From Oscillospiraceae bacterium (GTDB taxonomy: Bacteria; Bacillota; Clostridia; Oscillospirales; Oscillospiraceae), in the NCBI GenBank assembly GCA_017469795.1, contig JAFUFT010000045.1, forward strand, positions 1-32,416: a DNA stretch of 32,416 bases, written 5' to 3'. Positions 1,546-6,787 of this stretch are shown here, one piece after another (the stretch's first letter is position 1; each line of letters opens with the position of its first letter). The notes under the pieces were generated by a model. It did no database searches. It was not told where the DNA came from and worked only from the letters and a program-made list of their open reading frames with translations. Position numbers and translations under genes: made by a program.

Positions 1546-1660
1546 TTGCATAGAGACATGGAACAGCGGGCCTGTGAGCTGGCTGTATACATGATCGAGA
1601 ACCGGGCCACCGTCAGAGCTGCCGCCAGGCAATTCGGTGTCTCAAAGTCTACGGTACATA
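1546..1660 (+). CDS. spoIIID: spoIIID, 5' segment (gene interrupted by a recombinase element)
   Basis: This is the N-terminal part of SpoIIID, the small mother-cell DNA-binding regulator of sporulation. From TTG 1546 it encodes residues 1-38, including ATVRAAARQFGVSKSTVH, the first part of the helix-turn-helix. I chose TTG over the in-frame ATG at 1531 because GGGAGGTG ends 5 nt before it and the resulting N-terminus (MHRD...) matches the start of B. subtilis SpoIIID. Reading on past the core adds about 61 unrelated residues to a stop at 1845, giving a 99-residue product that lacks the rest of the recognition helix and the basic C-terminus. That product should not function. The matching 3' segment is at 6654-6787. 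The sequence split is seen directly; loss of function before excision is inferred. Confidence 0.92.
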
Positions 1661-1789
1661 CCGTTGTGACGGATTGGACCGCTTCGCCCTGTTTTGATTC
1701 TGCTCGATCAGAAGCCGGATCAGGATTTCCCGCGTCTCCTCTTTTGTATTCGGATCCCGGAATGAGAATGTCAGTTCCTTTCTGTTCAT
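1649..1789 (-). CDS. Small ORF at the left end of the element, 46 residues
   Basis: The product has 46 residues, starting MNRKELTFSF and ending NPSQRYVP, with charged, helix-prone sequence in the middle. GGAGGTGA lies about 6 nt before the ATG at 1789, a strong ribosome site, so I prefer this start to the longer in-frame one at 1873. The ORF points at the chromosome junction and ends across attL: its TAG stop lies partly in spoIIID sequence. In the excised circle the frame would gain one codon and stop at TGA, so the product barely changes. I do not recognise the family. Small proteins beside large serine recombinases can be recombination directionality factors, so this is a candidate, by position only. 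Confidence 0.55.
   Translation of the reverse strand: MNRKELTFSFRDPNTKEETREILIRLLIEQNQNRAKRSNPSQRYVP
1651..1686 (+). other. attL of the spoIIID element
   Basis: The core ACGGTACATA occupies 1651-1660. The element-side arm runs 1659-1686, starting TACCGTTGTG and ending GACCGCTTCG. Its reverse complement matches the attR arm at 26 of 28 positions. The non-palindromic centre is CA at 1657-1658, the likely crossover dinucleotide, since serine recombinases exchange strands at a 2-nt overlap. Left of the core is spoIIID coding sequence. Confidence 0.85.
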
Positions 1790-1988
1790 CAGCCTCACCT
1801 CCGCTGCATTGTATGCCCCATTCTTCGGTTTCATCCACGCACTGAGATCCCGGCCTCTCCGGCGAGGGATCAAATGGGGGATACAGGCTGAAATCCGAAC
1901 ATAGGAAATCCCGCTGCAGCCTGTTAAAATATAACAGACAGGATGATCCGACTTCCGTCAATTCGGAATATGGGAAAGAGGGATTAAA

Positions 1989-4229
1989 ATGATACAAAAC
2001 CACCGATTATTCGTAACCGCAGCTGCCCTGCTGTCGCTTTTGGCGGGTCTGGTACTGCCCACCGCCGCCATTGACGCAGACGCCGGCGCGCTGCAGATTC
2101 TGGATGGTTCTCCCGGCACGCTGGTCTCCAGCGATGAACAGCTGGCCTCCGTCGTGCTGGAGAACAGTTCCTCCCAAGATGCCGTCTTGAACGTGAGCGT
2201 GCTGGGTCACAAATCGGAAATCACGATTCCAGCCGGGCAGCAATATGCCTTTTCTGCGCCGGACCTCTACGACGAGGACGGCTGTGCCTACAAGCTGGTC
2301 CTGCTGGCGGAGGAAGAAGGCGGGATCACCGAATACCCTGTGACCGCCGGAACCGTTCTGAATCCGGAACTCTCCTATACCGCTGCGCTGGTGCGGGGCA
2401 TCTATGATGTCTATGAATCCCACGGGCAGCAGACGCCCCGGTGGATCACATGCCTGGTATATGCCGACGAAAACGGCGTGGACCCGGAGCGCTCGGCTCT
2501 TGCAGCCGTGGGTGATTCCGTTCCGGCAGGTGCTTCGGAGCTGACCGGTCTTTCCATCCGCTCTGAAAGCGACAACACCGCTGCCATCCGGGCAGGCGGT
2601 TCCGGCGCGCTCACGGTCCGGGACGCCGACATCCGTCTGTACGGCGACGGCGGCGACGATTTTACCGGCATCGGCTCCGCCCTCGGCGCTGCAGACACCG
2701 CCACTCTGACCGTCACAGGCAGCCGCATTTACACCGAGGGGATCCTGCGCAGCGCGATCTTCGCCGGAGATGAAGCCGTCATGGACCTGACTGATGTGGA
2801 AATCGACTGCGAGCCGGGGGAATATCAGTCCTCTGTCTCCATTCCCACCGCCGGTATGGCCTCCCCGCCCAACGGGCTGGGGATCTGGGGCAACTGCCGC
2901 GCCATGAACCTGGTGGACAGCGCCACGGTGACCATCCGGGATTCCGAGATCACCTCCCAGAACTGGGGCGCGCTGGGCGTGGACGACGTGACGGACGGCC
3001 ATCTCACCGTATCCGGATCCACCATCCGGATCACCGAGCAGGGCTACGGGGCATATGCGATCGGAAAGTGTGTGGATGTGTTCGATCACTGCACCTTTGA
3101 CATCGAATACGGCGTGGTGGGGTATGCCGCGGCGGGCGACGGCTCAGAGCTGATGCTGTCCGGCGGTTCCCAGGCAGACTCCAGAAACTATTACGGATTT
3201 GTCACCCACCAGTCCTTCAACGGTCAGAACTCCAAAATCACCGTCACCGGTGCGGATACGGCCCTTTATGCAAAACTCGGCGGCATCATCGCCAAGGGTC
3301 GGGGCGCGGACATTGAGATCAGCGACGGAGCCGTAGTCACAGCAGACAGCGGTGTTCTGGTCCGGGCGCAGATCAACGACGACACCGGTGCCGGCACCAT
3401 GGATGGAACCGAGGTTGTGAACGTGTCCATCCGGAACACCGGTCTGACTGGAGACATCATTCAGGGCATGGGAGCGCCCTACGATTCCCCCGCGGAGGAT
3501 GGCGTCCCGGCTATGGAGGACATGGGTCCCCCGCCGGATGACATGGGCATGCCGCCGGAGGGCATGGAACCCCCGCCGGAAGGCATGGGGCCCGGAGGCC
3601 CCGGCGGTCCTGGCGGTCCCGGCGGCTCCTCCAGAACAGAATCTGTCATGAACGTCACCCTGGACGGGGCCGATTTGGAGGGCGCGATCTCCTCTGCGGA
3701 GCTGACTCTGGCCATTGAGGACGGCAACATCTCCATGGACAACATCCGGGATGTGGGCGTTGTGACGCAGACTACGCTGACCCGCAATCCCTTTGCGGCA
3801 ATGAACGTGACCCTGCAAAACGGCGCCCGCTGGACCGTCACAGAGTCCTGCTTCCTCATGGAACTGACCTTAGACGATACCAGCGCTGTCAAAGCACCGC
3901 CGGGCTTCCTGCCGGTCCTGACAGTAGACGGGACGGAAACCGAGATTGCGGCAGGCACATATTCCGGTGAAATCGAGATTCGCCTGATGGAGGACCCGTC
4001 CTTCGTTCCGGAGGAAGCAGAATCCTCAGCCCCGGAAGCCTCCGCTGCGGAGCCGGTTTCCCAGCCTTCCCCCTCCCCGGACGTTTCCCCTGCGCCGTCC
4101 CTGTCCCCGGAGCCTTCGACCGGCTCTGAGAAATCCGGAAAGATCCCCACCGCCGCCGCTGTGCTAGGCGGAGCGGCCGTCATCGCCGCTGCCGGCGCGG
4201 GCGCAGTCCTGTGGCGCAGGAAGCGCTGA
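1989..4229 (+). CDS. Secreted, membrane-anchored beta-helix surface protein
   Basis: The product has 746 residues. Residues 1-28 are a signal peptide (short polar start, Leu/Ala-rich core, AxA-like end). About residues 180-480 hold repeated short strands such as LTVRDADIRL, LTVTGSRIYT, VTIRDSEITS and LTVSGSTIRI, typical of a right-handed parallel beta-helix. Residues of about 500-550 are a Met/Pro/Gly stretch (PPPDDMGMPPEGM, then GGPGG repeats). A second strand-rich part follows, then a Ser/Pro-rich linker at about 675-715, and a C-terminal hydrophobic helix ending WRRKR that would anchor it in the membrane. There is no LPxTG motif. The ribosome site is weak (AAGAGGG). It is cargo of the spoIIID element. 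Beta-helix proteins often bind or cleave polysaccharide, but I see no catalytic motif and assign no substrate. Confidence 0.85.
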   Translation: MIQNHRLFVTAAALLSLLAGLVLPTAAIDADAGALQILDGSPGTLVSSDEQLASVVLENSSSQDAVLNVSVLGHKSEITIPAGQQYAFSAPDLYDEDGCAYKLVLLAEEEGGITEYPVTAGTVLNPELSYTAALVRGIYDVYESHGQQTPRWITCLVYADENGVDPERSALAAVGDSVPAGASELTGLSIRSESDNTAAIRAGGSGALTVRDADIRLYGDGGDDFTGIGSALGAADTATLTVTGSRIYTEGILRSAIFAGDEAVMDLTDVEIDCEPGEYQSSVSIPTAGMASPPNGLGIWGNCRAMNLVDSATVTIRDSEITSQNWGALGVDDVTDGHLTVSGSTIRITEQGYGAYAIGKCVDVFDHCTFDIEYGVVGYAAAGDGSELMLSGGSQADSRNYYGFVTHQSFNGQNSKITVTGADTALYAKLGGIIAKGRGADIEISDGAVVTADSGVLVRAQINDDTGAGTMDGTEVVNVSIRNTGLTGDIIQGMGAPYDSPAEDGVPAMEDMGPPPDDMGMPPEGMEPPPEGMGPGGPGGPGGPGGSSRTESVMNVTLDGADLEGAISSAELTLAIEDGNISMDNIRDVGVVTQTTLTRNPFAAMNVTLQNGARWTVTESCFLMELTLDDTSAVKAPPGFLPVLTVDGTETEIAAGTYSGEIEIRLMEDPSFVPEEAESSAPEASAAEPVSQPSPSPDVSPAPSLSPEPSTGSEKSGKIPTAAAVLGGAAVIAAAGAGAVLWRRKR

Positions 4230-4242
4230 TCCGCAAGCCGGG

Positions 4243-4271
4243 TTGCCCTTCCGCCGTTTATCTGGTATGAT
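4243..4271 (+). promoter_or_regulatory. Sigma-A promoter for the LUD-domain gene
   Basis: TTGCCC (4243-4248) and TATGAT (4266-4271) are 17 bp apart, about 48 nt before the ATG at 4319. This implies vegetative expression of cargo, independent of sporulation. Confidence 0.6.
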
Positions 4272-4318
4272 GGAATCGTAGCCCATCATTCTGCAATCGC
4301 GTCAACAGGAGGTCAAAC

Positions 4319-4948
4319 ATGGACGAACGAATCACAAAGCGCAATGCGCTTCTGGCGCAAAAAGTCATCCGCGGACTGCAATCCCGGAATATGACGGGCC
4401 ACTATGCCGCGACCCGGCCGGAGGCCCTGGAGCTTGCCCTGTCCCTGATCCCGGAGGGCAGCGCCGTCACCATGGGCGGCGGGATGAGCATTCACGAGAT
4501 CGGTCTGGTGGACGCGCTGAAGCTCGGCCCCTATGATTTCATCGACCGGGACGAATACGAGGACAAGCGGGCGGCCATGCTAAAGGCCTACGACGCCGAT
4601 GTTTTTCTGGCCAGCGCCAACGCCATCACCGAAGACGGCGTGATCGTCAACATCGACGGCAACGCCAACCGGGTCTCCGCCATTGCGCAGGGTCCCCGGA
4701 AGGTCATTCTGATTGTCGGAATGAACAAGGTCTGCAGCGATGTGGACGGCGCGATGAAACGGGCCCGTAATGTTGCCGCCCCGATCAACGCCCAGCGCTT
4801 CGGCCTCTCCACCCCCTGCGCCAAAACCGGATCCTGCATGAACTGCAAGTCTCCGGACACCATCTGCTGCCAGTTCCTCATCACCCGGTTTTCCTGGCAC
4901 CCCGGCCGGATCCACGTGATCCTGGTCAACGACAGTCTGGGGTTCTGA
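4319..4948 (+). CDS. LUD-domain protein (LutC/YkgG, DUF162 family)
   Basis: The product has 209 residues and a perfect AGGAGGTC site 4-5 nt before the ATG. Family-like motifs are PEGSAVTMGGGMSIHEIGL at about 45-62, and ADVFLASANAITEDG followed by NIDGNANR at about 95-125. A Cys-rich segment near the C-terminus (PCAKTGSCMNCKSPDTICC) could hold a metal or cluster. LUD proteins occur in lactate-utilisation complexes (LutABC), but many stand-alone members in anaerobes have no known role. No lutA or lutB partner is in the window. It is the second cargo gene of the spoIIID element, with its own promoter and terminator. Confidence 0.85.
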   Translation: MDERITKRNALLAQKVIRGLQSRNMTGHYAATRPEALELALSLIPEGSAVTMGGGMSIHEIGLVDALKLGPYDFIDRDEYEDKRAAMLKAYDADVFLASANAITEDGVIVNIDGNANRVSAIAQGPRKVILIVGMNKVCSDVDGAMKRARNVAAPINAQRFGLSTPCAKTGSCMNCKSPDTICCQFLITRFSWHPGRIHVILVNDSLGF

Positions 4949-4991
4949 TGGGAACTTTCCCTGCCGCATTCCCAATGCAGAACAATCCAAG

Positions 4992-5041
4992 AAACACATC
5001 CGAACCGGTTTGGAGTTCCTCCCCGGTTCGGATGTGTTTTT
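4992..5041 (+). terminator. Intrinsic terminator after the LUD-domain gene
   Basis: A perfect 17-bp stem (4992-5008 with 5023-5039) with a 14-nt loop ends in a run of T. It separates the cargo gene from the recombinase, so the recombinase needs its own promoter. Confidence 0.85.
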
Positions 5042-5079
5042 GGTTTCGGCGCCCGGGCACATGCAAAGGGGATCCGACG

Positions 5080-5087
5080 CATACTAT
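5080..5087 (+). promoter_or_regulatory. Candidate mother-cell (sigma-E/K-like) -10 element of the recombinase
   Basis: CATACTAT at 5080-5087 resembles the CATA-type -10 element of sporulation mother-cell sigma factors. It lies about 35 nt before the chosen start and downstream of the terminator. The -35 region (ACATGCA, 5059-5065) matches sigma-E only weakly. I see no good sigma-A promoter in this gap. Confidence 0.35.
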
Positions 5088-5121
5088 TTCCTGAAAGGAA
5101 TTCAGGAAGGGGATGTGTGAA

Positions 5122-6654
5122 ATGAAGATCGCCGCATACTGCCGCGTTTCCACCGACAAGGCAGATCAGCTCAACAGTCTGGAGACCCAGAAGGCCTTTT
5201 TTCGGGAATACGCGGAACGCAGTGGGCATACTTTGGTCTGCGTCTATGCCGACGAGGGGATCTCAGGTACAAGGCTCAAATCCCGGACTCAGTTCCGGCA
5301 GATGCTGCTGGACGCGGAATCGGGCATGTTTGAACTGCTGGCCGTCAAGGACGTCTCCCGGTTTGCCCGCAATACTGTGGATTTTCTCCGAAGCATCCGG
5401 CATCTGAAATCCCTTGGCGTCGAGACGCAGTTCATCACCGCAAATATGACAAACATGGGCGACAGCGAGTTCATCCTCACGATCTTTGCCGCGCTGGCCC
5501 AGGAGGAGAGCGCCAACACCAGCAAACGGATCAAATTCACCAAGCGGATCAATGCCGAGAAAGGACGGGTACCAAATCTTGTGTTCGGATACGACAAGAT
5601 CAAAGGCGAATACTTTGACCTGCGGATCAATCAGAGGGAAGCGGAGATCGTCCGGGAGATCTACCGGATGTACGTCTGCGACGGGTTGGGGACATGCCGT
5701 ATCGCCGGCGATCTGAACCGGAAGGGATATACCACAAAGCGCGGATACCCGTGGAGCCAGGAGGCCGTGGCCCGGATCCTGTCCAATGAGCTATACATCG
5801 GGACAATCGTAAACGGCAAGGAGGAGGTGGCAGACTTCCTCACCGGCCGCAGGATTCAAAGGGAACCATCCCAATGGTACGTCACAGACCGGCCCGATCT
5901 GCGGATCATCGATCCCGGAATGTTCGATCAGGCCAGGCGCTTACGGCAGGAGCGCTCCGCCCGCCGCTCCTCAGCAGGTGAACGCCACAGCAGCCGTCAT
6001 CTGTTCTCCACCCTCATCAAATGTTCCGTCTGCGGCTCCTCCTTCCGAAGGATCGTAAGGAACGGTGGCAGCCCCAGCGTCCAATGGACCTGCACGGCAC
6101 GCAATCTGCGCGGCGCCGCCGCCTGCTGCAACGCGGTCCGGGTGGATGAAGCCGTCCTGACCGAGGCCCTGAACGAATACTTCTCGGAACTACTGGGTGA
6201 CAGAGAAACGCTGGCAAAGCGCATTACCCGTGCTCTCTCCGGGACGGAGGCATCCGGCGGGAGCGATCCGGCCCGCAGGAAGGATTTGAGCGACCGGCTG
6301 GCGCAGCTTCGGCGGACCCGGCAGAAGTATTTGGATCTGTACGCGGACGATCTCATTTCCAGGCGGGATCTGGAGACTCTGATCGGCGGGTCCGGGACCG
6401 AGATCCAATCCATTGAACAGGAACTGCAGGCGCTCTCCCGCAATTCGGAGTCATCTGTCTGTACTGCGGTTCCGGAATCAAGCAATCCCCTTCCGGACAC
6501 CGATCTGGACGTCGGCGCCCTGTCCAACACCCAGCTCCGGCAGGTGATAGAACGGATCACCGTATCCCCGGAGGGGCGTGTTTCCGTCTGTCTCAAGCGC
6601 TTTGGCACAGCTGCCCCGGAGCGAAGCGGTCCAATTCCTCACAACGGTACATAA
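5122..6654 (+). CDS. Large serine recombinase of the spoIIID element
   Basis: The product has 510 residues from ATG 5122; an ATG at 5113 adds three residues but sits directly on the AGGAAGGGG ribosome site, so I reject it. The N-terminal resolvase domain holds AAYCRVSTDK, with catalytic Ser10, and DVSRFARN with Arg80 and Arg83. A recombinase domain follows at about 155-275, with the typical NRKGYTTKRGYPWS and ILSNELYIG. A zinc ribbon lies at about 305-345 (CSVCG and a later Cys group), then a coiled coil at about 375-435. The family includes SpoIVCA, which excises skin, and phage-type integrases. It reads in the same direction as spoIIID. Its TAA stop (6652-6654) spans attR and depends on chromosomal bases; in the excised circle the frame would run 12 residues further. 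It is the evident catalyst for excising this element. Confidence 0.95.
   Translation: MKIAAYCRVSTDKADQLNSLETQKAFFREYAERSGHTLVCVYADEGISGTRLKSRTQFRQMLLDAESGMFELLAVKDVSRFARNTVDFLRSIRHLKSLGVETQFITANMTNMGDSEFILTIFAALAQEESANTSKRIKFTKRINAEKGRVPNLVFGYDKIKGEYFDLRINQREAEIVREIYRMYVCDGLGTCRIAGDLNRKGYTTKRGYPWSQEAVARILSNELYIGTIVNGKEEVADFLTGRRIQREPSQWYVTDRPDLRIIDPGMFDQARRLRQERSARRSSAGERHSSRHLFSTLIKCSVCGSSFRRIVRNGGSPSVQWTCTARNLRGAAACCNAVRVDEAVLTEALNEYFSELLGDRETLAKRITRALSGTEASGGSDPARRKDLSDRLAQLRRTRQKYLDLYADDLISRRDLETLIGGSGTEIQSIEQELQALSRNSESSVCTAVPESSNPLPDTDLDVGALSNTQLRQVIERITVSPEGRVSVCLKRFGTAAPERSGPIPHNGT
6622..6653 (+). other. attR of the spoIIID element
   Basis: The element arm 6622-6649 (starting CGAAGCGGTC, ending CACAACGGTA) is the inverted partner of the attL arm at 1659-1686. 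The core copy is 6644-6653, with the CA centre at 6650-6651. To the right lies spoIIID coding sequence beginning AAGGACCTT. In an excised circle the two arms meet as a near-perfect palindrome of 28-bp arms around CA. Confidence 0.85.
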
Positions 6655-6787
6655 GGACCTTACCACACGTCTTCCGAACCTCAGCGCATCCCTCTATCAG
6701 CAGGTTCGTTCGCTGCTGGATCAGAACCGGGCAGAGCGCCACATCCGGGGCGGTATGGCAACCCGCAGGAAATACAAAGGCGCATAA
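6654..6787 (+). CDS. spoIIID: spoIIID, 3' segment
   Basis: Counting from the core codons ACG GTA CAT, this segment supplies residues 39-82 of SpoIIID: KDLTTRLPNL..., then a helical part and RHIRGGMATRRKYKGA. It closely matches the B. subtilis C-terminus (KDLTERLP, then IRHLRGGEATKLKYK). The frame matches the 5' segment exactly at the core. Joined, the protein has 82 residues, normal for the family (about 80-93). The segment has no ribosome site or start of its own, so by itself it is silent. The conserved residues argue that it is still under selection and is not a decaying fragment. Confidence 0.92.

Follow-up and report, generated by a model that had tools for sequence, protein, structure and literature searches.

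A serine recombinase element splits spoIIID in an Oscillospiraceae bacterium and recurs across families of Clostridia

The interrupted spoIIID locus

The window analyzed here, a 32,416-nucleotide stretch of DNA from an Oscillospiraceae bacterium, contains the sporulation gene spoIIID in two halves on the + strand, separated by an element of 4,993 bp (CA to CA) that encodes a large serine recombinase. The 5′ half (1546–1659; TIGR02844, 1.2e-10) starts with a TTG codon at 1546 behind the ribosome site GGGAGGTG, has an inner ATG at 1558 and ends in ...SKSTVH, while the 3′ half (6650–6787, stop codon included; TIGR02844, 9.4e-19) reads HKDLTTRL...RHIRGGMATRRKYKGA. Both TIGR02844 E-values, obtained for either half alone, fall under the whole-protein cut-off, and the N half and the C half are each above the cut-off of PF12116. 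The split point lies at the S-T-V-H codons, where the 10-bp repeat ACGGTACATA occurs at 1651–1660 and again at 6644–6653, with the codons ACG GTA CAT inside both copies. Joining 1546–1659 to 6653–6787 yields 82 codons and a stop, counted from the TTG at 1546. The original prediction made from this DNA had described the same-strand halves with ACG GTA CAT in a 10-bp repeat, the 82-residue product of their joining and the large serine recombinase between them, all of which was borne out.

From the inner ATG onwards, 1 of 78 residues distinguishes the joined SpoIIID from the product of the uninterrupted gene in a sister species (G002); the two genes differ by six synonymous changes and one nonsynonymous change. 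When the window flanks were joined in a script, they aligned to the uninterrupted G002 locus in a single 3,138-nt alignment with 90.8% identity. Close relatives, which the original prediction had proposed to compare, carry a full-length spoIIID in all three other genomes of the window genus, one of them (G002) aligned at the same locus. The window genome (3.06 Mb in 101 contigs, 100% complete, 0.66% contamination) was searched as a whole for the second intact copy that the original prediction had named as a refutation, and no SpoIIID was found beyond the two halves.

Each copy of the repeat is the core of an attachment site, attL at 1651–1660 (predicted crossover CA at 1657–1658) and attR at 6644–6653 (predicted crossover CA at 6650–6651), both on the + strand. 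The adjoining element arms, at 1659–1687 on the left and 6621–6649 on the right (29 nt), are 93% complementary, and for this reason the reconstructed attachment site of the element, attP, is a near-palindrome around CA (26 of 28 matches; chromosomal site attB, 5 of 28). Symmetry around a central dinucleotide is described for the attP sites of phage serine recombinases (PMC5595907; here and below, the available parts of the cited papers are the source). The recombinase (5122–6654, + strand, frame open from an ATG at 5113; PF00239, PF07508, PF13408) contains Resolvase, Recombinase and zinc-ribbon domains, and its stop codon TAA overlaps the core. As in skin-like elements, the coding region of a mother-cell sporulation gene is interrupted (the mother-cell role of SpoIIID being taken from the literature), a direct repeat stands at both element ends whose recombination would restore the spoIIID frame, and a large serine recombinase lies within. 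The element lies outside sigK, which is one open frame in the window genome.

Recurrence of the split and the recombinase clade

A larger group of family genomes was sampled evenly to 400, among them that of the window. SpoIIID matches were obtained in 326 of them, 325 above the cut-off, and coordinates were examined for 45 that had several matches or a weak best match. Both halves without a full-length match were present in 22 of the 400 genomes, from 19 genera (window's included). The junction, read in the DNA in 18 of the 22, falls at the same codon, N halves ending in ...SKSTVH and C halves beginning with HKD; the calls for G052, G097, G144 and G352 were made from match limits only, with G097 the least clear. 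The clade recombinase was observed in 18 of the 22 split genomes; the DNA preceding the C half was examined in all but G052, G097 and G352, and in G198 a contig end cuts it. Four further family genomes (G166, G275, G284 and G376) carry a C half alone, directly after a clade recombinase. In the class sample (391 genomes, 280 with a SpoIIID match, coordinates examined for 42), the two-half arrangement without a full-length copy was found in eight genomes in addition to the window's (G446, G457, G459, G534, G688, G696, G706 and G754), and two further genomes, G645 and G714, have a broken N half. The spoIIID elements thus occur across several families of the class.

In every element measured, 24 of 24 that have their two halves in a single locus and 16 of 16 pairs across two stretches (one of these, G459, in one locus), the central CA is shared and the palindrome is better in attP than in attB. 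The symmetry arising from the element ends, together with the recurrence in other family genomes, places the split arrangement beyond chance. An assembly artefact or chimera, which the 101 contigs of the window genome might suggest, is hardly credible, given that the same arrangement is seen in many genomes, titled isolates included, and that the attP symmetry spans both element ends.

Interrupted sporulation genes on record are sigK, spsM, spoVFB, gerE and yabG (PMC5595907, PMC10747680). We recognized no report of a spoIIID element in the literature searched, the scope of which left out most subscription papers and all preprints. The claim that such an element would be new for Oscillospiraceae therefore stands for the searchable literature and fails for the genomes, in which the element is recurrent both there and in other families of the class.

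The recombinases form a clade that is dedicated to the spoIIID site. In an alignment of 17 recombinases from split loci the mean column identity was 73%, with 41–52% identity between the window recombinase and the other 16. Of the best 80 of 585 recombinase relatives in titled species genomes, 75 have a SpoIIID C half behind them by tblastn; a 76th, L118, shows it by eye at a contig end, in L164 the contig terminates at the core after the recombinase, and the remaining three (L143, L165 and L185) lie elsewhere. The titles among these 80 include Flavonifractor, Pseudoflavonifractor, Agathobaculum, Angelakisella, Blautia, Schaedlerella and Sporofaciens. By record title, Schaedlerella arabinosiphila DSM 106076 and Angelakisella massiliensis have the two halves within one locus, Flavonifractor sp. 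An82 (G183) likewise has both halves, and for Agathobaculum butyriciproducens DSM 100391 it is the C-half junction that was observed. In a tree restricted to those of 111 recombinases longer than 380 residues, the deep branches L283, L292, L293, L290, L299 and L081 also sit at split spoIIID loci, so that the preference for this site looks old. In two loci (G367:C6 and L083) the recombinase frame continues without a stop into the C half, predicting a recombinase-SpoIIID fusion when the element is integrated.

Relatives of the recombinase were also sought among mobile elements. In the viral collection the closest among the best 80 of 594 relatives were L193 (51% identity to the query), the sole one above 50%, and L194 (42%). 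The L193 recombinase lies on a 62-kb contig and is followed by an apparent unsplit palindromic attP, with no spoIIID, as judged by eye; an unsplit attP was observed only in this relative. Phage-family matches were obtained for 8 of 10 L193 proteins searched, including DNA polymerase, helicase/exonuclease, ligase, endolysin and tail proteins. Phage records gave one match of 54.8%, MT838016, the other 11 listed of 569 being below 33%. MT838016 is a 6.4-kb linear record that itself contains attR and a spoIIID C half; we ruled it out as an excised circle because a terminal repeat is lacking and the sequence runs on into the C half. No plasmid relative exceeded 34.9% identity among the 12 listed of 541.

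Element sizes range from 2.6 kb to about 65 kb (G534). The existence of larger relatives, tens of kilobases long and including one phage-like contig, suggests that the small elements descend from temperate ones by loss of genes or exchange of cargo. In the window, the cargo consists of a 746-aa protein (1989–4229, + strand) with a weak sorting-domain match below the cut-off and a LUD-domain protein of 209 aa (4319–4948, + strand; PF02589, 4.7e-49); Pfam and NCBIfam searches of the element's three large proteins, in which PHROGs was not used, returned no phage structural or replication genes. Defence models (AbiL/RloB-like and AriAB-like) were matched by some of the cargo proteins scanned. Others matched an ATP synthase subunit, an ECF transporter, MmgE/PrpD, a chemoreceptor or a tyrosine integrase, and several had no match. 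An AAA ATPase is common to L116, L122, L123, L136, L139 and L156 (AbiLi/AriA-like in L116) and stands beside an RloB/AbiLii-like protein in five of these six elements, L136 also having an AriAB-like protein; the set amounts to defence-type cargo inside a sporulation gene.

A small co-conserved protein and promoter-like motifs

Besides the recombinase, the element encodes a small protein of 46 aa (MNRKELTFSFRDPN...; 1649–1789, − strand) with tblastn matches in other elements and a mother-cell-type promoter motif, which the original prediction had missed. Clustering placed small proteins of 54–83 aa in 17 of 24 elements. A profile, which included the window's own sequence, matched in 86 of 152 loci searched, some of them the same element twice or short pieces. 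Titled genomes contributed 80 loci, of which 65 have the small protein; in 7 of the remaining 15, less than 1 kb of sequence precedes the recombinase. Of 24 full elements, 22 have it, L081 weakly (E 0.006). It has no match in Pfam or NCBIfam, and of its 218 relatives in the protein database 3 of the 120 listed are named, all as hypothetical or uncharacterized. The small protein is likely to be the recombination directionality factor of the element. Lacking a Pfam or NCBIfam match, it may differ from CD1234, the directionality factor of the Clostridioides difficile skin element.

De novo motif search in 52 non-redundant upstream regions of the small gene returned acTATTTT.aga....tTtTCATAGaatTG at 19.0 bits, while 20 dinucleotide-shuffled control sets gave a mean of 9.4 and a maximum of 9.65 bits. 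The pattern [AC]TA-N16-CATA occurs in 43 of the 52 upstreams (160 nt each); 200 mononucleotide shuffles gave 1.5 on average and never more than 5. Of 71 non-redundant recombinase upstreams (120 nt each), 2 contain it. ATA-N16-CATA also precedes 27 of 41 intact spoIIID relatives, and the sigma-E promoter of C. difficile spoIIID reads ATA-N16-CATATATA (PMC3789822). L193 carries the small protein together with its upstream motif.

In the window, pattern matching predicted sigma-E-type promoters for spoIIID (ATA-N16-CATATACT; 1491–1517, + strand), the small protein (ATG-N16-CATACAAT; 1808–1834, − strand) and the recombinase (ATG-N16-CATACTAT; 5061–5087, + strand). Their common pattern ATR-N16-CATANNNT, defined post hoc after the window sites were known, has four matches in the window against 0.54 expected, a number reached in 0 of 100 shuffles. 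The matches lie directly upstream of spoIIID (1491), the small gene (1834, − strand) and the recombinase (5061), the fourth being inside the recombinase gene at 5208. Among the 71 non-redundant recombinase upstreams, the window's is the sole one with this pattern. By these motifs, the small gene and the recombinase of the window both look to be under sporulation control. The skin recombinase of C. difficile is produced outside the mother cell as well, control being exerted on the factor (PMC5025042); in most relatives the recombinase likewise has no motif, and the window recombinase, unlike that of C. difficile, has a mother-cell-type motif of its own. Expression in the sporulation phase, as predicted for the window recombinase, is reported for the skin recombinase of Bacillus subtilis (PMC5595907).

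A box, GTTGTAACAGAACG-N-TAACAGAAAGGT, is conserved about 50 nt upstream of many recombinases (L084, L124, L143, L144 and others), where by eye it stands after a sigma-A-like promoter. It resembles the C. difficile SpoIIID box KRTAACARK (PMC5025042), and feedback of SpoIIID on the recombinase through this box is our guess.

Signs of retained function and a putative developmental switch

We compared the halves with their nearest intact genes by the proportions of nonsynonymous and synonymous differences (pN/pS), counting loci, some of them twice, and only those within 30% of an intact gene. The values were 0.114/0.491 (ratio 0.16) for 38 N halves and 0.122/0.641 (ratio 0.09) for 67 C halves; intact controls gave 0.13 (n = 44) for the N part and 0.15 (n = 39) for the C part. 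On these ratios, both halves look to be under purifying selection. In the window genome, the frames of sigE, sigK, spoIIGA and spoIVA are uninterrupted: sigE is above the cut-off of PRK08301, sigK above that of PRK05803 and under that of TIGR02846, spoIVA above its cut-off, and spoIIGA, with a match below the cut-off, adjoins sigE. The skin-like reading of the original prediction is supported by these uninterrupted genes, by the single split copy, by the intact congeners and by the open halves. A neutral split, with SpoIIID dispensable for sporulation in the host or a truncated N-terminal product sufficient, would agree with the report that loss of SpoIIID in C. difficile harms sporulation less than loss of sigE or sigK (PMC5025042). 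We nonetheless consider it very unlikely, since the ratios are low in both halves, including a C half that would be useless, and the N half alone stops short of the conserved RHIRGG C-terminus.

Decay, which the original prediction had named as a sign against it, is absent from the window, where both halves are open, and is seen in one genus (g209) of another family. There, G645:C27 (L306) has an N-half frameshift in an A7/T3 run, with an open C half and a recombinase that is partial at a contig end, and G714:C37 has three stops in the N half; some insertions may thus be decaying. The diverged N half of G600, which precedes an intact spoIIID by 2.3 kb, is what one would expect of a half that is no longer needed.

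Several contigs end no more than 8 nt from the core (G110, G258, G317, G419, G568 and L164). In G258, a 77-nt identical overlap runs from the N half to the contig end at the core and into the intact gene on another contig. Such branching at the core is expected if integrated and excised junctions coexist, and is not proof of it. The contig breaks of G113, G137 and G287 were dropped as signs of excision, not being within 8 nt of the core. Extra N halves beside an intact gene were found in G001:C166, G211:C119, G261:C27, G277:C60, G450:C42, G558:C45 and G600:C61. For G001, G211, G261 and G277 we dropped their reading as excised and integrated forms, since in G261 and G277 the match to the intact copy is limited to about 200 nt, including 50–90 nt of upstream DNA. 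These extra N halves possibly stem from elements whose own promoter and 5′ end would rebuild the gene upon insertion.

Taken together, spoIIID is split by an element with a serine recombinase and a small protein, and self-excision in the mother cell probably restores the gene. Excision of the window element, and its timing during sporulation, are what we infer from the split, the common core, the palindromic attP, the site-bound recombinase clade, the promoter-like motif and the low nonsynonymous change. Several points weigh against this. Halves containing stops were excluded by the search pattern behind the selection counts, and the C halves are nearly saturated with synonymous differences (pS 0.64). 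The sigma-E assignment is itself a motif reading, and the window pattern was chosen with its sites in view; if ATA is required, matches are left only at 1491 and 5208, with ATG standing before the small gene and before the recombinase. The de novo search did not select the window's small-gene promoter, and the window small gene lies at the opposite end and on the opposite strand to that of most relatives. Among the 24 full elements, the profile search gave no small-protein match in two, L073 and the 2.6-kb L077. Strain mixture could equally account for the contig breaks at the core, the broken N halves of g209 belong here too, and in L143, L165 and L185 the clade recombinase is followed by non-spoIIID DNA, these being perhaps secondary attachment sites.

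Some of these points feed a different account, by which spoIIID is a favoured landing site of serine-recombinase phages or islands, insertion blocks or weakens sporulation, and excision is ordinary phage induction without developmental control. Serine recombinases often converge on one target gene (PMC10083194), a phage-like contig with a clade recombinase exists, one genus has a frameshift or stops in its N halves, and excision is known by inference only. We judge this account unlikely: 43 of 52 small-protein genes are preceded by a mother-cell-type motif, the substitution ratios of both halves resemble those of intact genes, and sporulation genes are kept in the window genome.

The proposed excision in the mother cell would differ in its timing from known skin systems, in which sigma-E and SpoIIID jointly time the event (PMC5025042). 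In C. difficile, where the element (recombinase CD1231, factor CD1234) lies in sigK instead of spoIIID and excision likewise rebuilds a mother-cell regulator, excision depends on SpoIIID (PMC5025042), which is impossible for a spoIIID element. Because a split spoIIID cannot start its own repair, sigma-E without SpoIIID would have to be the trigger, and the DNA switch would accordingly sit one tier above sigma-K; as SpoIIID normally helps to trigger skin excision, it would also sit one tier higher than skin. Under this scheme, sigma-E without SpoIIID would start excision, the directionality factor being made in the mother cell from a sigma-E-type promoter; the element would leave the mother-cell chromosome and spoIIID would be rejoined. 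The loss would be limited to the doomed mother cell, the spore keeping the element, and the switch would hold back SpoIIID and the SpoIIID-dependent sigma-K stage. We lean slightly towards a broader scenario, in which a recombinase clade common to temperate phage and small cargo elements made spoIIID a developmental switch across several Clostridia families: sigma-E alone would lead through an unnamed directionality factor to mother-cell excision and then to SpoIIID and the sigma-K stage, with SpoIIID-box-like repeats shutting the system off.

Other known elements share parts of this arrangement. The B. subtilis skin (sigK, SpoIVCA) is likewise excised developmentally from a mother-cell regulator (PMC5595907) and is set apart by its target gene. 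The gin element in gerE of Bacillus cereus ATCC10987 (GirC, GirX) is non-phage and lies in a very small gene for a mother-cell transcription factor, with a recombinase, a factor and a 9-bp core (PMC5595907). It measures 28.6 kb, has three recombinases and is reported from some B. cereus and B. toyonensis strains (PMC5595907), whereas spoIIID elements come from several families and are between 2.6 and about 65 kb long. In Clostridium botulinum V73, yin interrupts yabG, a Clostridia sporulation gene, and integrated and excised forms occur in one culture; yin is described as unique to this strain, and yabG is under sigma-K (PMC10747680). SP-beta in spsM and vfbin in spoVFB are phage or phage-like elements in sporulation genes, and SP-beta rejoins spsM via a serine recombinase and a factor (PMC5595907, PMC10747680). 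Their targets are biosynthetic (spore polysaccharide and dipicolinate); spoIIID encodes a regulator above sigma-K.

If correct, the proposed excision would be a programmed DNA rearrangement earlier in the mother-cell cascade than skin. It would also bring in a new family of candidate directionality factors, along with the recombinases and attachment sites that go with them. Ranging from a phage-like contig down to a 2.6-kb element, the relatives form a natural series that may illustrate how a developmental switch is made out of mobile DNA. The bearers are many and, by record titles, come from gut and rumen samples; spores may carry such bacteria between hosts. The split could also account for the broken or truncated appearance of spoIIID in draft genomes, in which case calls of sporulation gene absence may be wrong. 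Anaerostipes hadrus strains are reported to differ in spoIIID (PMC12888040), and phage phi6013 reportedly carries a spoIIID gene of its own (PMC5027557), a case different from the split gene. At the start of the window, positions 1–350 appear by eye to be repetitive DNA.

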